The position numbers were made by a program, and so were the translations under genes. The notes beneath the pieces are model-generated. The model was given only the letters and a program-made list of their open reading frames with translations, was not told the DNA's origin and did not search any database. This document shows, piece after piece, positions 5,759 to 49,813 of a stretch of DNA of 64,000 nt. Source of the DNA: Solidesulfovibrio fructosivorans JJ]. Its GTDB lineage: Bacteria; Desulfobacterota; Desulfovibrionia; Desulfovibrionales; Desulfovibrionaceae. Each line of letters starts with the position of its first letter. Positions within the stretch are counted from its first letter, which is position 1. Location of the stretch: positions 1-64,000 of the forward strand of contig NZ_AECZ01000006.1 of NCBI RefSeq assembly GCF_000179555.1, in the 5' to 3' direction.

Positions 5759-7144
5759 ATGGCTCTCCTCAGACATACCACCGGCGAGATCAAGGAACGC
5801 AAGGCGCTCACCGTCAACCCGGCCAAGACCTGCCAGCCCATCGGCGCCATGTATGCCGCGCTCGGGGTGCACAATTGCTTCCCCCACAGCCACGGCTCCC
5901 AGGGCTGCTGCGCCTACCACCGCTCCACCCTGACCCGCCATTACAAGGAGCCCATCGTCGCCGGCACCTCGTCGTTCACCGAAGGCTCCTCGGTCTTCGG
6001 CGGCCAGTCGAACCTGATCACGGCCATCGACAACATCTTCACCCTCTACGACCCCGAAATCATCGCGGTCCACACCACCTGCCTGTCGGAGACCATCGGC
6101 GACGACCTGATGCAGATCTCCCAAAAGGCCAAGGACGACGGCAAGGTGCCCGAGGGCAAGGTCCTCATCTACGCCAGCACCCCGAGCTATGTCGGCACCC
6201 ACATCACGGGCTACTCCAACATGGTCAAGGGCATCCTCAAGGGCTTCGCCGCCAAGACCGGCACGCCCAACGGGAAGCTCAACATCATCCCCGGCTTCTG
6301 CGAGCCCTCGGACATGGCCGAAGTCCGCCGCCTGTGCGCGATGATGGGCATCGACATCATCATGGTCCCGGACACCAACGGCGTGGTCAACGGCCCGCTC
6401 ACCGGCAAGTACGAGATGTTCCCCAAGGGCGGCGCCACCAGGGAAGAGATCGCTTCCATGGGCGACTCCATGGGCACCGTCGGCCTGGGCCGGTGGGCCA
6501 CCACCGACGGCGTCAACTTCCTGGACGCCGAGTTCAAGGTGCCCGGCACCATCCTTGGCATGCCAATCGGCCTCCAGGCCACGGACCGGTTCATCGAGAC
6601 CCTGCACAAGCTGACCGGCAAGCCGGTCCCCGAGGCCATCACCTTCGAGCGCGGCCAGATGGTCGACATCATCTCCGACTACGACCAGTACCTCTACGGC
6701 AAGAAGGTGGCCCTGGCCGGCGATCCGGATCAGCTGCTGCCCCTGGTCGAGCTGATCGTCACCCTGGGCATGATCCCGGCCTACGTCGTGTCCGGCACGG
6801 CCGGCAAGTACTTCGATGACCGCATGGCCGAGCTGACCAAGGACGTGCCCTACGACTGCAAGTACAAGTGCGGTCCCCTGGCCGACATGTACCTGCTGCA
6901 CCAGTGGATCAAAAACGATCCGGTCGACCTGCTCATCGGCAACACCTACCTCAAGTACATCGCCCGCGACGAGGACATCCCACTGCTGCGCCACGGCTTC
7001 CCGATCCTCGACCGCATGGGGCACCAGTACTTCCCGACCTTCGGCTACACCGGCGGCATGCGCCTTCTGGAGAAAATCCTGGCCGCCATCATGGACCGCC
7101 AGGACCGCGACGCCCCCGAGACCCGCTTCGAACTGCAGATGTAA
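5759..7144 (+). CDS. nifK: nitrogenase molybdenum-iron protein beta chain
   Basis: Beta subunit of the MoFe protein, 461 residues. It supplies the other P-cluster ligands: Cys25 (PAKTCQPIGA), Cys50 (GSQGCCAYHR) and Cys108 (VHTTCLSETIGDDL). The N-terminus is about 45-50 residues shorter than in proteobacterial type I NifK, as usual for NifK paired with the longer anaerobe-type NifD. Cofactor-assembly genes nifE, nifN and nifB are not in the window and must be elsewhere if the enzyme is active. The ribosome site is AGAAGGAA upstream of the ATG. Confidence 0.97.
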   Translation: MALLRHTTGEIKERKALTVNPAKTCQPIGAMYAALGVHNCFPHSHGSQGCCAYHRSTLTRHYKEPIVAGTSSFTEGSSVFGGQSNLITAIDNIFTLYDPEIIAVHTTCLSETIGDDLMQISQKAKDDGKVPEGKVLIYASTPSYVGTHITGYSNMVKGILKGFAAKTGTPNGKLNIIPGFCEPSDMAEVRRLCAMMGIDIIMVPDTNGVVNGPLTGKYEMFPKGGATREEIASMGDSMGTVGLGRWATTDGVNFLDAEFKVPGTILGMPIGLQATDRFIETLHKLTGKPVPEAITFERGQMVDIISDYDQYLYGKKVALAGDPDQLLPLVELIVTLGMIPAYVVSGTAGKYFDDRMAELTKDVPYDCKYKCGPLADMYLLHQWIKNDPVDLLIGNTYLKYIARDEDIPLLRHGFPILDRMGHQYFPTFGYTGGMRLLEKILAAIMDRQDRDAPETRFELQM

Positions 7145-7904: not shown

Positions 7905-9859
7905 CACGGCAACCTCTCCACATCGACGACCGCTTCGTAATAGGGCGTGCCCTGTCCCACGGCGCTGACCATATCCGGGATGATCGTGTTGATCCCCTGC
8001 CCGGCCTTGATCCAGCCGCCCCGTTCACAACAGACCACGTCCGGGCGCAGGGCCGGATCGTGGCGCACGGTCACGGGAAGCGAACCGAGTTCGCCGACCA
8101 GTCTGGCCGGGCCGCCGTCGGCAATGCCGCACCGCGTCGCTTCCGAGGCGGCCATGGCCAGCACAATGGGGCCGCCATGATCCCCCGGCACCCGCTCGGA
8201 GCACAGATGCTTGGCCATGCCCGGGGTGAGCAGCCGATACGGGTAGCGCGTGGCGACCCGGCAGTCGTCGCAGCCCGCGACGTCCGTCAGGAGCTGGAAT
8301 CGGCCGCTCGGGGTATCGAATTTCCCGTCCGCCCAGGGCACCATGGGGGCGTTTGGAATGCGCACCGGCCCTTTCCACAAATCGTCCCAGGCCACGCCCT
8401 GCTCAAGCAGTGGCCGCAGGATCAGCCGCAGCCACGCCTCGTCGCTTTTGATGAACGCGTCGGCAAAAGGAAAGCGTCTGGCCAGGTCCATGAAGATGTC
8501 GAACTGGGACCGGCACTGCCCGGGTGGCGGCGCGGCCGGAAGGAGCGGCCCTACGTGGTTGTGGCCGAAGCTGGCCACGATGTCGCGCTGCTCGAAAAAG
8601 GCGGCGCAGGGCAGAAACAGGTCGCAGTGGCCGGCCGTGTCGTCGAGAAAGAGGTTCATGTCCACGACAAAGGGCACGGCGTCGAGCGCCTTGGCCACCA
8701 GATTGGAATTGGGGGCCATGCACACCGGGTTGGCGGCGCTTATGACCGCCATTTCGATGGGCGGGTCCTTGGCTGCCAGAATCTCCCGGCCGATTTGCGG
8801 CATGAGGAGCTTGCGGCGCGGCGGATGGAGCCCCTCCCCCCACATTTCCTGGTCGTACGGGCCCCATTCCTCGAAGCCCTGGGACACGCCGCCGCCGGGA
8901 ATGCCAATGTTGCCGGAAACGGCCCCCAACGCATCCACCGCCCGCACCAGCTCATGGCCCAGCGTGAAGCGGTGCAGGCCCCAGCCTAAAAGCGTGGCCG
9001 TGGGCCGGCCGGCCGCGTAGGCCTCGGCCAGCGCGTCGACGAGATCCGGCTCCACATCGCAGGCCCGGCGCAGCTGTTCCGGGGAATAGCGATGCAACAG
9101 CGCCAGATAGGCGTCCAGGTTATCACAACGGTGGGCAAGGAATTCCCGATCCTCCCGGCCGGTGTCCACGATGCGCCGGGCCACGGCCAAGGCCAGAAAG
9201 GCGTCGCGGCCGGGCCGGGGCGCGATGTGCAGGTCGGCCAGGGGCACCGATTCGCACGGGCGCGGGTCGATGAGGAGGATGCGGGCGCCGCGTTTTTTGG
9301 CCTCGCGCAGATGGACCATGATCCCGGGCTGGGTGGCCACGGGATTGCGGCCCCACAAGACGATGGTGCGGGCGTTTAAAATATCCAGGGGATCGTGGGA
9401 AACGCGCGGCCCGTAATCGAGGCTTTGGGCGGCGTAGCCCGTGCCGCCGCAAAGCGTGCCGGCCAGGGTGGTCACCCCGCCGAGGTGGGCGAAAAAGCGG
9501 GCATTGACGATTTTCAGGGCCGTGCGCTCGCCAAAGCCCATGTAATAGAGGATGGACTCCGGGCCGTATGTGGCCACGCAGGCTTTCAGCCGGTCGGCCA
9601 TCTCGTCCAGGGCATCGTCCCAGGTGACCGGGACAAAAGTGTCACCCCGCCGTCGAAGCGGCGTCAACACGCGCTCAGGGCTGTAGAAGCGGCGCAAAAA
9701 GGCCGGGGCCTTGCGGCAGATCGTCCCTTTGTTGACGGGGTGGTCGGGGTTGCCGGTCAATTTCACCACCCGGTCCCCTTCCACATGGGCGAGCAGGCCG
9801 CAGGCGCTGGGGCAATCCCGGGTGCAGGTGGCGACGAAGATTTTCGCGCCGTCTTTCAT
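7904..9859 (-). CDS. molybdopterin-dependent oxidoreductase, DMSO-reductase superfamily
   Basis: Cytoplasmic Mo/W-bisMGD enzyme of 651 residues. The N-terminal [4Fe-4S] motif is CTRDCPSACG followed by a fourth Cys in TICRKAPAF. The Asp/Gly-rich bis-MGD contacts appear in WGRNPVATQPG and LLIDPRPCESVPLADLH, and the C-terminal barrel starts near FDTPSGRFQLL. A Cys in TLAGTLCGGTGYA sits where the metal-coordinating residue is expected. There is no twin-arginine signal, and no electron-transfer or membrane-anchor gene beside it, unlike respiratory PhsABC/PsrABC systems. The start at 9859 is supported by GGAGGA at 9863-9868; an upstream ATG is rejected. Substrate unknown; acetylene hydratase-like or thiosulfate/polysulfide reductase-like activity cannot be told apart here. 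Confidence 0.85.
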   Translation of the reverse strand: MKDGAKIFVATCTRDCPSACGLLAHVEGDRVVKLTGNPDHPVNKGTICRKAPAFLRRFYSPERVLTPLRRRGDTFVPVTWDDALDEMADRLKACVATYGPESILYYMGFGERTALKIVNARFFAHLGGVTTLAGTLCGGTGYAAQSLDYGPRVSHDPLDILNARTIVLWGRNPVATQPGIMVHLREAKKRGARILLIDPRPCESVPLADLHIAPRPGRDAFLALAVARRIVDTGREDREFLAHRCDNLDAYLALLHRYSPEQLRRACDVEPDLVDALAEAYAAGRPTATLLGWGLHRFTLGHELVRAVDALGAVSGNIGIPGGGVSQGFEEWGPYDQEMWGEGLHPPRRKLLMPQIGREILAAKDPPIEMAVISAANPVCMAPNSNLVAKALDAVPFVVDMNLFLDDTAGHCDLFLPCAAFFEQRDIVASFGHNHVGPLLPAAPPPGQCRSQFDIFMDLARRFPFADAFIKSDEAWLRLILRPLLEQGVAWDDLWKGPVRIPNAPMVPWADGKFDTPSGRFQLLTDVAGCDDCRVATRYPYRLLTPGMAKHLCSERVPGDHGGPIVLAMAASEATRCGIADGGPARLVGELGSLPVTVRHDPALRPDVVCCERGGWIKAGQGINTIIPDMVSAVGQGTPYYEAVVDVERLP

Positions 9860-17403: not shown

Positions 17404-20400
17404 TTACCTCTTCCTAAAAAGTGTCACGCCCTTGCGCTCTTGGACGGCTTCGAAAAGCTGTCGCAGCAGCGCGGCGTAGGGGCTCTTTTCAGCGGGGGTA
17501 CCGTTGATGGTCGTCAGGGTGAGACGCGGCACGGGGGCAACGCGGCGCGTAAGCAGGTGCGTCAGGGGCGCGAGGGCTGCGGGAAGCGCGGCGTCTTCGG
17601 GCGAAAGTTTTATGGTGAGCCTGCCGGGGCCGGTTTCGAGGGTCAGGACGGGGTCCGGGCCGATGAAGGCGACATACGCGCCGGCGGCCCGGCGCGGCAG
17701 GGACAATGCCCCGTCTTGCGGCGTCCCCCCCCACAAGGCGGCGGGATCGCGGCCGCAGCACCACCAGGATTCGCTTCCCGAAAGGCCGCCGCTTATAAGG
17801 CGCACGGCACGGGCGGCGGCGAACTGCGGCCCGGAGAGGCCGGCGAAAAATTCCCCTGAGACGACCTCGCCGGAAAGCTCCATGCGCCGCAGCGCCCGGA
17901 ACACTCCGGGCCAGGCGAATGCTTTGTTCTCCTTGGCGATGGTCTCCCGGCAGACCACGCCGTAGCGCGCCAGAAGAAGCCTGGCCCGGTCCATGGCCAG
18001 CTCTTCGCGGGCCAGCGGATCGTCCGGCGGCTCGGGAACGCGCAGCGCCCGCCACATGCCGGCCGTGGGCAGCGCGGCGGCAAACCGGGCCGGCGCGGTG
18101 CGGCGGATGGCGCGCCGGCCGCGTATGGCCCCTTTGTAGGTCGCGGCCTCAGGCGTGAAATCCGTGGCCACGCCCCGGCGCAGCACGGCCAGGGAATCGC
18201 AGGTCGCCTGTGCGGCAAAAGCCGCCTGCCACAACGCCTTGGCCAGCTCCGACGGCGGCAGGCCGGTGATTTCCAGCAAAGCGGAGAAATCGTAGCCGGC
18301 CCGGGGATCGGGAAAGAGCTCTTCCGTCCCCTTGGACGGCGTGAATCCGGCCAGGTCCAGGTCGTCCGGCAAGGCGAAAAGCACCCGCTTGGGGCCAGCC
18401 CCGTACCACCCCATGCCGGTCGCGCCGAGGGCCACATCGAGCCAAGCCGGATCGTAGCCCACGCTTCGCGCCGGCAGCACATCGGCTTCCCACAGCGCGG
18501 CGGGAAGCGGCAGGCAGGCGAGCTGTACCAGGCGGTCGGCCAGACCGTCGGCATCCTGGGCCGGCTTGGCCAAACCCTGCCAGATGGCGGCGAAATACGG
18601 CAGCCGGTCGGCCGCAAGCGCCACCACCCGGGGACGCCGGGCCGCCCGGGCCAGGCGCAGCAGGGTCTCGAAATTGGCCGCGTCGCACCAGCGCGCTTCC
18701 GGGCTGCCGGAAACGAGTTCCCCGGACACCCACTTGCCGGCAATGGTCAGGTCCTCGGCCGCCCCGGCCACGCTCTCCGGCGCGATGGCGAGCAGTTCAC
18801 CCATACGGCCAAGCGACATGGGGCCGTAAAAGGACATCCACTCCGTAAAAAGCGATTCCCGCGCGGCGGCGAGATCCTCCTCGGAAATGCCGGCCCGGCG
18901 CGGCAGCTTTCCCTTTTCCGAAAACGGCCGGGCCAAGGCGGCGCCGCCGTACAGCGCCAGGGCGATCTCCCCGGCCCGCTCCAAGGCGGCCAGACGCGGC
19001 TCCGCGTCCCCCGGCGCGTCGATGCGGGCCAGTTTCGGGGAGAGCGCCGCTTCGAGCGCCTCCGGTTCCCCGCCACCGTCGCGATGGGCGGCGGCGAGCA
19101 TTTCCCGCCACTGACCGCGCGTCACCAGCACCCGTTCCTTGAGCCATTCGAGCAGTTCCGCCGGCGTGGTCGGGGCGTAGCCGGGAAAAAGCCGCTGCCG
19201 CTTGGCCTCGAACGCCGCCACCACCGCGTCGGGCACGGCCGGCCGCACCGGCCCCCGGGCCACCTCGGCCACAAGGTCGGGCCGGGCTCCGGTCGGACCG
19301 GCCGTGGTGCCGGCATCTGTCAGGTACATGTACTCGGTGATGTGCCGCCAGACGAGGTCGGCGGCAAAGGGGCTCTGGACGCGGGTGCGGACGATGCTGA
19401 CGGCCACGTCCCCGGCCCGCAACGCGGCCAGGAAGCCGGCCAAACCTTCGATGTCAAATATCTCGCCAAGACACGTGCGCCAGGCTTCGAGCACCATGGG
19501 GAAATCGCCGCTATGGGCCACGGCGGCGAGCAGCTTTCGGGCCCGAAGCCGCGTGATCCAAAGCGGCTGGCGCTTGCCGAAGCCGTCCTTGGGCAACAGG
19601 AGCGCCCGGCCGGCCGCTTCCCGAAAGGCCAGGCCGAAGGCGCCCGACCCTTCGAGGCGCGAGCGCAGCATGGGGGTCACATCCCCGACCGGCAGCGCGG
19701 CGAGCACGGCCTGCGGATCGATTTCCCGGGGCAGGGTCACGGCCACGCAGTCGTTGCCGGCAAAAACCGGGGCAGTCTCTCCCAGTCGTTCAGCTAGCTT
19801 CGCCTCAAGGATAAGGGACAACGGCGCGGTGACGGCAAGCCCGAGGGGCGCATGCAGGATCACCTGGCTGCCGGGCGCGCCGCCGGGACCGGTGGCCGTG
19901 ACCTCGACCACCAGATGCCGGGCATGGGGCAGGCCGACGCCGGTGGCCTCTTTCTGGCCGCGCAGGTAATCGACGAGTTCCCCGGCCGCCTGGGGCTCCA
20001 TGGCATATTGGGTTTCCAGCTCCCGGCGGAAATCGGGGTCGTCGAGCCGGGTGTCGGCTTCCTCCAGAAAATCGGCCAAGAGCTTCGAGAAATGACGGTC
20101 GCGCGAACGGCCGTCGCCGATCCAGAACGGTGCCGGCACGGTCCCGGTCGGAGCCGGCGACACGAAGACTTCGGCGTCGGTGATGCGCTCGATGCGCCAG
20201 TTCTGCGCGCCAAAGGCGAAAATCTGGCCAAGCCGCGCCTCCCAGACAAAGACCTCGTCCAGCTCGCCAAGCCTGGCCCCGCTCTCCTGGCGGCGCAGGG
20301 CATAGTAGCCCCGGTCGGCGATGACCCCGCCCGAGGCATACAGCCGCAACAGCGCCCCCTTGCGGGCGGAGACCGTACTGTCCAGGCCGTCCACGGCCAC

Positions 20401-47153: not shown

Positions 47154-47966
47154 ATGCACGAAAAAACACTCGCCGCGAAGCCCCGGCCCGCTTTTGGCCG
47201 GGCGATCGGCATCGATTATTCCGGGGCCGCCACGGCGGAAACGGGGTTGGCGGGATTGCGCGTCTACACGGCGCAAGGGACCGCTCCGCCGACCGAGGCG
47301 CATACGCCGGAGTATGGCCGGAAGCATTGGTCGCGCCGGGAGCTGGCCGTCTGGCTCACGCAACGTCTTGGCGAGGATGTCCCGACCATTGTCGGCATCG
47401 ACCACGGGTTTTCCTTTCCCCTGCCCTACTTCGAGCGATACGGCTCGCCGCGCGATTGGCCGGCTTTTCTGGATGATTTCCAGGCATTCTGGCCGACCGA
47501 CGCGCCTTCGGTCACCGTGCAGCAGATCCGCGACGGCGCATATGGCAAGGAAGGGACGCGACCGGGCAACGCCCGCTGGCGGCGTCTGTCCGAGATCCGC
47601 ACGGGCCGGGCCAAGTCGGTGTTTCATTTCGATGTGCCGGGATCGGTGGCCAAGTCCACCCACGCCGGCCTGCCCTGGCTGCGATTTCTGCGGCGCGAGC
47701 TTGGCGACCGGGTGCATTTCTGGCCGTTTGACGGCTGGGATTTTCCGAGCGGGAAATCGGTCGTGGCCGAATGCTATCCCGCCTTGTGGAGCCGGAGCTT
47801 TCCGAGGGAAGGCCGCACCCAGGACCAGCAGGACGCGTACAGTCTGGCGGCATGGTTGCGCCGGGCTGATGCCGACGGCGCTTTGGCGGCGTGTTGCCGC
47901 CCCGCGCTGACCGCTTCGGAGCGGGCGACGGCGGCCATCGAGGGCTGGATTCTGGGAGTCGCCTAA
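47154..47966 (+). CDS. DUF429-like protein, putative RNase H-fold nuclease
   Basis: Soluble protein of 270 residues. The start of the domain, GRAIGIDYSGAATAETGLAG, has the Asp-containing first strand of the RNase H-like fold. VGIDHGFSFPLPYFERYG and the C-terminal QDQQDAYSLAAWLRRADAD supply further acidic residues in the expected order. DUF429 members are predicted nucleases with no settled role. AAGGAG precedes the ATG. It lies next to the CRISPR type I-C remnant, but no link is implied. Confidence 0.7.
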   Translation: MHEKTLAAKPRPAFGRAIGIDYSGAATAETGLAGLRVYTAQGTAPPTEAHTPEYGRKHWSRRELAVWLTQRLGEDVPTIVGIDHGFSFPLPYFERYGSPRDWPAFLDDFQAFWPTDAPSVTVQQIRDGAYGKEGTRPGNARWRRLSEIRTGRAKSVFHFDVPGSVAKSTHAGLPWLRFLRRELGDRVHFWPFDGWDFPSGKSVVAECYPALWSRSFPREGRTQDQQDAYSLAAWLRRADADGALAACCRPALTASERATAAIEGWILGVA

Positions 47967-48001: not shown

Positions 48002-48105
48002 GTTTGTCACCGCCTCCCGTTCGGGGGGAGGACTGGCCGCCATAATCATTGGAGACCTTGAAATCGTGGTTTCAATCCACGCCCCCGCGTGGGGGGGGGG
48101 GCGAC
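48002..48105 (-). CRISPR. type I-C CRISPR array remnant with one spacer
   Basis: The unit at 48069-48105 reads GTTTCAATCCACGCCCCCGC then TGGGG...GCGAC. This is the reverse complement of the type I-C repeat of Desulfovibrio, with its G-run expanded to 11. A degenerate second unit at 48002-48033 keeps GTTT, the central CCC, five Gs and the GAC end (18 of 32 positions). The gap is 35 bases, a normal type I-C spacer length. A leader-like inverted repeat (GTGCGAACC... and ...GGTTCGCAC near 48237-48291) lies on the side where the leader should be. No cas gene is in the window. Confidence 0.65.
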
Positions 48106-48613
48106 TGTCGGTCCCGATACCCGGACAACACGGGGTTCTCCCCCGCATCTCCGCGAACCGACGTCAAAATGTATCCCTATCTTCCCTTGGCAAAGAACTC
48201 TCACCAAACAATCTACCGAAATCATTCCCCTCCGCAACCGTGCGAACCTCCCCGGCAATCCCTCCCCACTTGGGGTTCGCACAGCCAACCGCATCATACA
48301 GTCACGAGCAAGGCCACGTCCACGCCGACCATGCGCGCACAGCCGCATCGTGATCCCCCCATCCCCAGCCGATCGGCCGCCCTGCCAGCCCCTCTCCCCT
48401 TGGCCAGATGTACGCCACGCAAAATACGCAATATGCCGGCAATACGCGACATCACCATTCCAGTAACAACCGTGACCCTATATGACGTCACTAAAAATCT
48501 TTCTCGCGTGACAATATTGCACTTTTGTCAAATCATGTTGTACTCCACGCAACAGTCTCATTTTCCCTTTTATTTTTACAAAACTGAATTACGATTATCA
48601 GGTACCAAATAAC
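48106..48613. other. leader-like and promoter region without a gene
   Basis: About 500 bases between the CRISPR remnant and the uptake operon. It holds an inverted repeat of GTGCGAACC and GGTTCGCAC around 48237-48291, reminiscent of type I-C leaders. It then becomes AT-rich (48470-48613), with promoter-like TTGTCA and TTGTACT elements near 48525-48545 and a GATTATCA stretch near 48592. A metal-repressor site could lie here, but no good Fur box was found. Confidence 0.45.
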
Positions 48614-49813
48614 ATGTCTGCAAATGTAAGCGACATTCTCGACTTCACTGTTCAACATTTTTTGCGGCAATACCCCGATGGACGCCATCTGCTGGAGCTG
48701 GCCGGACTGACGCAAGAACCTTCCCACGAACAAAATGACCCCTTGTCCGCGTATCTCACTCTGGGAAGTCTGCTGCGCCACCGCGGCCTTGATCCGCGGG
48801 CGTTTCTGGAACTGGTGGCGGCCCGGCACGAGATGGCGGAAACGACGGGCAGACCGCTTTGGGTGGAGGCAAACGTCCCCTGCGCCCTGAAAGCGCCGCT
48901 GGAAATCGCCCTGAAACAGGCCGGCGAAATCCAGGGACGTGGGACACCCCCCGAAGCCCGGATCACGGTGCAATCCGAAAACGAGTCGTCCATCAGCAAT
49001 CAAGGCGACACCATCACCGACCTCGCCCGCATGCCCGACCTGACCATGGCCGCCGGATACAACACCCTGCTCGACCATGCATTCATGCGGCGATGGGCCA
49101 CAAAGGAACATTTCGCCGCCAACCCCGGCCGAAAGGTCAACCCCGCCCTGGCTCCGTACGGCTTTGCCGATCCGCAGGGCATTTACCGGGCCATCGGAGT
49201 CAACGTCTTCGTCTTCGTCATCGATCCCGTGCTGGCCAAGGGACGGGAAACGCCTGACGCCTGGGAAAAACTGCTGGACGAGGCCTTCGTCCGGGACGTG
49301 GCCGTCTGCGGCATGGGGGACAAGGTCAGCGGCTCGCTCATGCTGCACATCCAGGCCAAATTCGGCGACGACGCCGTGCGCCGCTTGGGACGCAACGTCC
49401 GCTGCGGCATGCACCCCTCCCAGGTCATCAAATTTCTCGGCACGGGCAGTCCCCAGAGCCCGGCCGTGGCCGTCATGCCGTATTTTTTCGCCCGCCTTGC
49501 CGACATACGCCGGCCAGCCACGGTGGTCTGGCCCCGCGACGGGGCGGTGGCCATGCCCTTTTTCCAGCTCGTCAAACGCAACGGCCCGGAAAAACTCGCC
49601 ACTCTCGCCGCCCACATGGAAGGGGCGGAGGTCGGACGCGTGTGCTCCGGAGCCTTTTTCCCCTCCCTCCACCCGGACGTGCCATGCCCCCTGCCCGAGG
49701 AAGCCAGCCTAGCCTGGCTCGGCTGGGACACGCTGCGCGAAAACGATCTGGCCGCCCTGCGCCGTCGGGCGGCAACCCTCTTCGAGGAGGGGCGCGGCGA
49801 GACCCGGCCGTGA
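48614..49813 (+). CDS. signal-less substrate-binding-like protein with DUF1858-like N-terminus
   Basis: Protein of 399 residues. Residues 5-75 resemble the small helical DUF1858 domain (LDFTVQHFLRQYPDGRHLLE, then LGSLLRHRGLDPRAFLELVA). Residues 110-395 look like a type 2 periplasmic-binding fold (ITDLARMPDLTMAAGYNTLL, AIGVNVFVFVIDPVLAKGRE, AVMPYFFARLADIRR). There is no signal peptide or lipobox, so it should be cytoplasmic. It heads an operon of FecCD permease, ATPase, TonB receptor and a true periplasmic binding protein, and its stop overlaps the permease GTG. Inference: it handles the imported metal, chelate or corrinoid inside the cell, or senses it. Confidence 0.65.
   Translation: MSANVSDILDFTVQHFLRQYPDGRHLLELAGLTQEPSHEQNDPLSAYLTLGSLLRHRGLDPRAFLELVAARHEMAETTGRPLWVEANVPCALKAPLEIALKQAGEIQGRGTPPEARITVQSENESSISNQGDTITDLARMPDLTMAAGYNTLLDHAFMRRWATKEHFAANPGRKVNPALAPYGFADPQGIYRAIGVNVFVFVIDPVLAKGRETPDAWEKLLDEAFVRDVAVCGMGDKVSGSLMLHIQAKFGDDAVRRLGRNVRCGMHPSQVIKFLGTGSPQSPAVAVMPYFFARLADIRRPATVVWPRDGAVAMPFFQLVKRNGPEKLATLAAHMEGAEVGRVCSGAFFPSLHPDVPCPLPEEASLAWLGWDTLRENDLAALRRRAATLFEEGRGETRP

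Follow-up and report, generated by a model that had tools for sequence, protein, structure and literature searches.

Does a single type I-C-like repeat with a leader, one spacer and a degenerate second repeat, found without cas genes at about 48 kb of the window (the 64,000-nucleotide stretch of the Solidesulfovibrio fructosivorans JJ genome analysed here), represent the relic of a lost CRISPR-Cas locus, a mini-array still in use, or a solitary repeat unit with some other role? The first-pass annotation had read the interval 48002-48300 as a type I-C remnant with one spacer on the minus strand; this span is correct to within about 10 bases, and the type, the orientation and the side assigned to the leader were all upheld by our tests. 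On the minus strand the parts follow one another, up to 48290, in the order leader, repeat, spacer and degenerate repeat (Table 1). The features by which an I-C array is recognised are present: a 32-nt repeat type ending in GTGGATTGAAAC, lengthened here to 37 nt owing to a C-run; at least two repeats at a spacing of 33-37 nt, the second here being degenerate and 35 nt away; and a homologous leader on the correct side. As argued below, the locus very probably preserves, in a decayed and non-functional state, the leader and trailer ends of what was once a type I-C CRISPR-Cas locus.

Table 1. Features of the I-C-like locus, its flanking genes and the I-E system of the same genome
Feature	Position	Strand	Evidence
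Left neighbour gene; 270-aa product with weak likeness to the PRK14495 C-terminal domain (function unknown); unrelated to CRISPR	47154..47966	+	
Degenerate leader-distal (terminal) I-C repeat, stem folding retained	48002..48033	-	Gapped alignment, folding
Spacer, 35 nt, CACGATTTCAAGGTCTCCAATGATTATGGCGGCCA	48034..48068	-	Protospacer searches: none found
Leader-proximal I-C repeat, 37 nt, C-run grown from 6 to 11	48069..48105	-	Core search, Rfam, relatives' arrays
I-C leader including inverted repeat	48106..48290	-	Global alignment to G001, G010 and G003 leaders
Right neighbour, encoding a 399-aa SBP_bac_6 solute-binding protein, with FecCD transport genes after it; unrelated to CRISPR	48614..49813	+	
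Type I-E CRISPR-Cas locus, same genome	L060:1246-11491 (contig C16)		Matches to Cas3, Cse1, Cse4, Cas5e, Cse3, Cas1e

The clear repeat, described at first as one with an expanded G-run, reads GTCGCCCCCCCCCCCACGCGGGGGCGTGGATTGAAAC on the minus strand, where the corresponding C-run is 5 nt longer than in the usual 32-nt repeat. Allowing up to 3 mismatches, a 24-nt core of this repeat has one occurrence in the window, none in 100 shuffles and one in the 4.67-Mb genome, where this is the sole full copy of the repeat. Rfam CRISPR-DR9 covers the full 37 nt at 24.2 bits, which is under its gathering score of 45. Furthermore, a 28-nt core matches exactly the long arrays of two relatives (G064 and G096), which are built of the repeat type GTCGCCCCCCACGCGGGGGCGTGGATTGAAAC or of a variant with one base changed at its 5' end. 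Folding shows that the loop of the repeat is enlarged by the expanded C-run; we read the growth of this run as slippage within a homopolymer under weakened selection.

The 185 bp to the right of the repeat show 66-70% identity to the leaders of I-C arrays in the congeners G001, G010 and G003, with z-scores of 10-11 over shuffles in global alignments. They are collinear with these leaders at an equal distance from the repeat (-179..-45 versus -177..-46), and the blocks AGGGATAC and CGTCGGTTCGCGG are likewise conserved at equal distances from the repeat in the congeners. The inverted repeat noticed earlier to the right of the array is of the canonical form GTGCGAACC ... GGTTCGCAC, lies at about 48239-48283, approximately 130-180 bp before the repeat, and belongs to this leader homologous with those of intact I-C arrays; the comparison with I-C leaders that had been proposed as a check of the first reading thus bore it out in three congeners. 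Weaker agreement was seen with the leaders of G096 (z 7), G064 (z 6) and both G005 and G011 (z 5-6). The divergence of this leader from those of its congeners does not exceed that of the leaders of G005 or G011, both of which front long arrays; the leader itself therefore shows no visible decay, which counts against the relic interpretation.

In G001, G003 and G010 the inverted repeat directly follows a stop codon (...CTTATCGTGTAG), presumably that of cas2 given the usual order of I-C genes. The window sequence upstream of the inverted repeat has no significant similarity to the cas2 regions of these congeners. One minus-strand frame, ending in VGVDVALLVTV before its stop where congeners have ends like PGVDQEGPLII, was considered as a relic of the cas2 C-terminus and rejected, as the 500 bp preceding the leader, aligned as DNA to the congeners' cas2 regions, scored within the shuffle range.

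At the other end of the locus, the degenerate repeat (GTCCTCCCCCCGAACGGGAGGCGGTGACAAAC on the minus strand) was said to lie one spacer length from the clear one, and both the gap of exactly 35 nt, which is within the range of I-C spacers, and a gapped match to the I-C repeat variant of G023 (GTCGCTCCCCCCGCGGGAGCGTGGATTGAAAC) agree with this. The score of that gapped match, 35, is reached otherwise only by the clear repeat itself among 127,936 positions on both strands, in a comparison that was not blind, the G023 variant having been picked after the element had been seen. Against the clear repeat's own type the gapped score is 29, a value that a few unrelated sites of the window also reach. 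Degenerate last repeats also close the arrays of relatives, for example those of G037 and G064. The same 32 nt might instead be a gene terminator or a chance hairpin, leaving a leader with a solitary repeat: the ungapped identity to the clear repeat type is just 18/32, a level attained at about 77 places in the window, and the element does fold into a hairpin. However, it has no T-run, a terminator search on both strands found none there, related copies of the upstream gene have no comparable hairpin beside them, and the G023-type score is unique in the window, the clear repeat aside, at precisely the expected distance. We therefore regard a terminator or chance hairpin as unlikely; it is in any case a variant of the relic interpretation, and the two can hold together.

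The first-pass annotation had left open whether the array had collapsed or is served by cas genes elsewhere, and here its two branches part. Cas5c is absent from the genome, while the relatives score strongly; so is Cas7c, carried at >300 bits by 8 of the 14 genus genomes, and so is Cas8c, for which G001 and G072 give >500 bits. A caveat is that the genome is a draft of 75 contigs, although its completeness is 100%; no assembly break conceals a cas locus next to the array, which is placed 48 kb into a contig of 191 kb. A type I-E system is the sole CRISPR-Cas system detected; it occupies a separate locus on contig 16, its Cas1 is the only one in the genome, and its array has at least 27 copies of a repeat, GGGACTACCCCCGCGCGAGCGGGGAAGAC, that differs from the I-C repeat. 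The I-E array and the I-C-like locus have no 13-mer in common. Collapse is upheld, whereas service by cas genes elsewhere is unsupported, since the genome has no type I-C interference genes and only an I-E system with an unrelated repeat.

The proposed spacer search against phage and plasmid sequences yielded no protospacer: the best phage match spans 25 nt at an E-value of 0.1, not beyond chance; plasmids gave no match, half-spacers gave none in IMG/VR, and none was found with up to 3 mismatches in the rest of the genome or in 58 relatives. These results bear on the possibility that the locus is an orphan mini-array still in use, with a leader-driven transcript processed in trans by an intermittent, perhaps plasmid-borne, set of cas genes or by the I-E system. 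Its leader motifs are well preserved, and the only two DNA matches to the repeat in the plasmid collection both lie on Nitratidesulfovibrio vulgaris plasmids; a detached mini-array 54 kb from an I-C operon in the relative G072, described below, indicates that use in trans is possible in the family. Against these points stand the lack of Cas5c, Cas7c and Cas8c, the different I-E repeat without a common 13-mer, the unmatched spacer and the enlarged loop of the repeat, and we consider continued use very unlikely.

The G072 mini-array (L082 about 5850-6150, minus strand; G072:C2 near 314.8-315.2 kb) has an I-C-like leader, two repeats whose C-runs are overlong and a third repeat that is worn; shrunken arrays are accordingly not unique in the family. 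In another genome, G042, which is without Cas5c, two near-identical I-C-like mini-arrays (L063 about 9434-9534 and L064 about 17644-17744) have upstream sequence in common at two places in the genome, and are possibly a mobile or duplicated remnant. It is conceivable that leader-keeping I-C mini-arrays with drifting repeat length, such as the present one and that of G072, are a recurrent element retained in the family, and that I-C systems gained and lost over time, for instance on plasmids, use them in trans, though we give this combined proposal very little credence.

The surroundings of the locus are those of an ordinary chromosome. Of 13 congeners, 8 have relatives of the left neighbour, in no case with an I-C array downstream, and the I-C loci of congeners are not beside such a relative; a scan of the genome collection with the right neighbour protein returned no relatives. 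The nearest prophage seen is Mu-like and starts about 18 kb to the right of the locus. This setting is relevant to a further possibility, that the locus is a solitary repeat unit acting as an RNA anti-CRISPR (Racr) or a regulatory crRNA-like RNA. Solitary repeat units without cas genes do occur on phages, and a type I-C Racr is reported to inhibit I-C immunity (PMC10651486); the present locus resembles these in having a single good I-C-like repeat and no cas genes. Yet Racrs are described as lone repeats of viral genomes, whereas here a genuine I-C leader, one spacer and a terminal repeat stand in array order between ordinary genes of a 191-kb contig with no sign of a phage or plasmid location, the I-C system to be inhibited is absent, and PAM-adjacent partial matches to the spacer in the window never exceed 8 of 12 seed bases. 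A role as Racr or regulatory RNA is accordingly very improbable.

The same contig bears a second I-C relic, 2 kb to the right of the window (C6 about 65966-66062; L098:5967-6062) and 18 kb from the first, in the same orientation; it has no leader and consists of a worn repeat, GATCGCCTCCCCGGTCACGGGGGCGCGGATTGAAAC, a 33-nt spacer and a terminal half-repeat. The repressor gene of the Mu-like prophage is some 160 bp away, and the 19-20 leading bases of the relic's spacer are common to two viral contigs, without a TTC PAM. A perfect 32-bp direct repeat, CAAATCAGTGCCAAATCGCGCGCCGCCTTACA, is present at L098 about 5843-5874 and L099 about 17673-17704 (C6 near 65.84 kb and 97.67 kb), with the second relic and the prophage between its copies, which are 31.8 kb apart. 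Both copies have a terminator-like hairpin after them, with a tRNA-Arg gene next to the right one, and the direct repeat is a candidate phage end motif or attachment site. The presence of a second worn I-C relic 18 kb away counts for the interpretation of the first as a relic.

Based on these observations we propose that the cas operon, which in congeners apparently ends with cas2 just before the inverted repeat, was deleted up to that inverted repeat, and that the array shrank, probably through recombination between repeats, to its leader-proximal repeat, one spacer and the old terminal repeat. That the locus arose by deletion, and not from a fragment transferred into the genome, is our inference, as is its loss of function. 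Without Cas5c a transcript would not receive processing of the right type, and without I-C Cas1-Cas2 no spacers would be gained; the Cas proteins needed to mature and exploit its RNA are all missing, and the locus is therefore most probably inert.

Compared with the I-C loci of G001, G003 and G010, which are Desulfovibrio-type bacteria, the repeat is alike save for a few differences and the C-run, as are the orientation, the leader with its inverted repeat and conserved blocks, and the spacer length; unlike them, the locus lacks cas genes and has a single spacer, a single good repeat and a C-run longer by 5. Orphan arrays without cas loci are known from Mycobacterium (PMC10333696) and P. aeruginosa PAO1 (PMC11687729), and in these, as here, an array has outlasted its cas genes; here, in addition, the leader can be aligned to those of relatives' full arrays and the array could not be any smaller. 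As orphan arrays and other remnants of CRISPR loci are already well known, the locus is an ordinary relic, well documented and unsurprising. It provides a clean example of array shrinkage with the leader still recognisable, useful for tools that call CRISPR arrays, and it records the loss of type I-C, whose Cas7 is encoded by over half of the sampled genomes of the genus, from a genome that retains type I-E.
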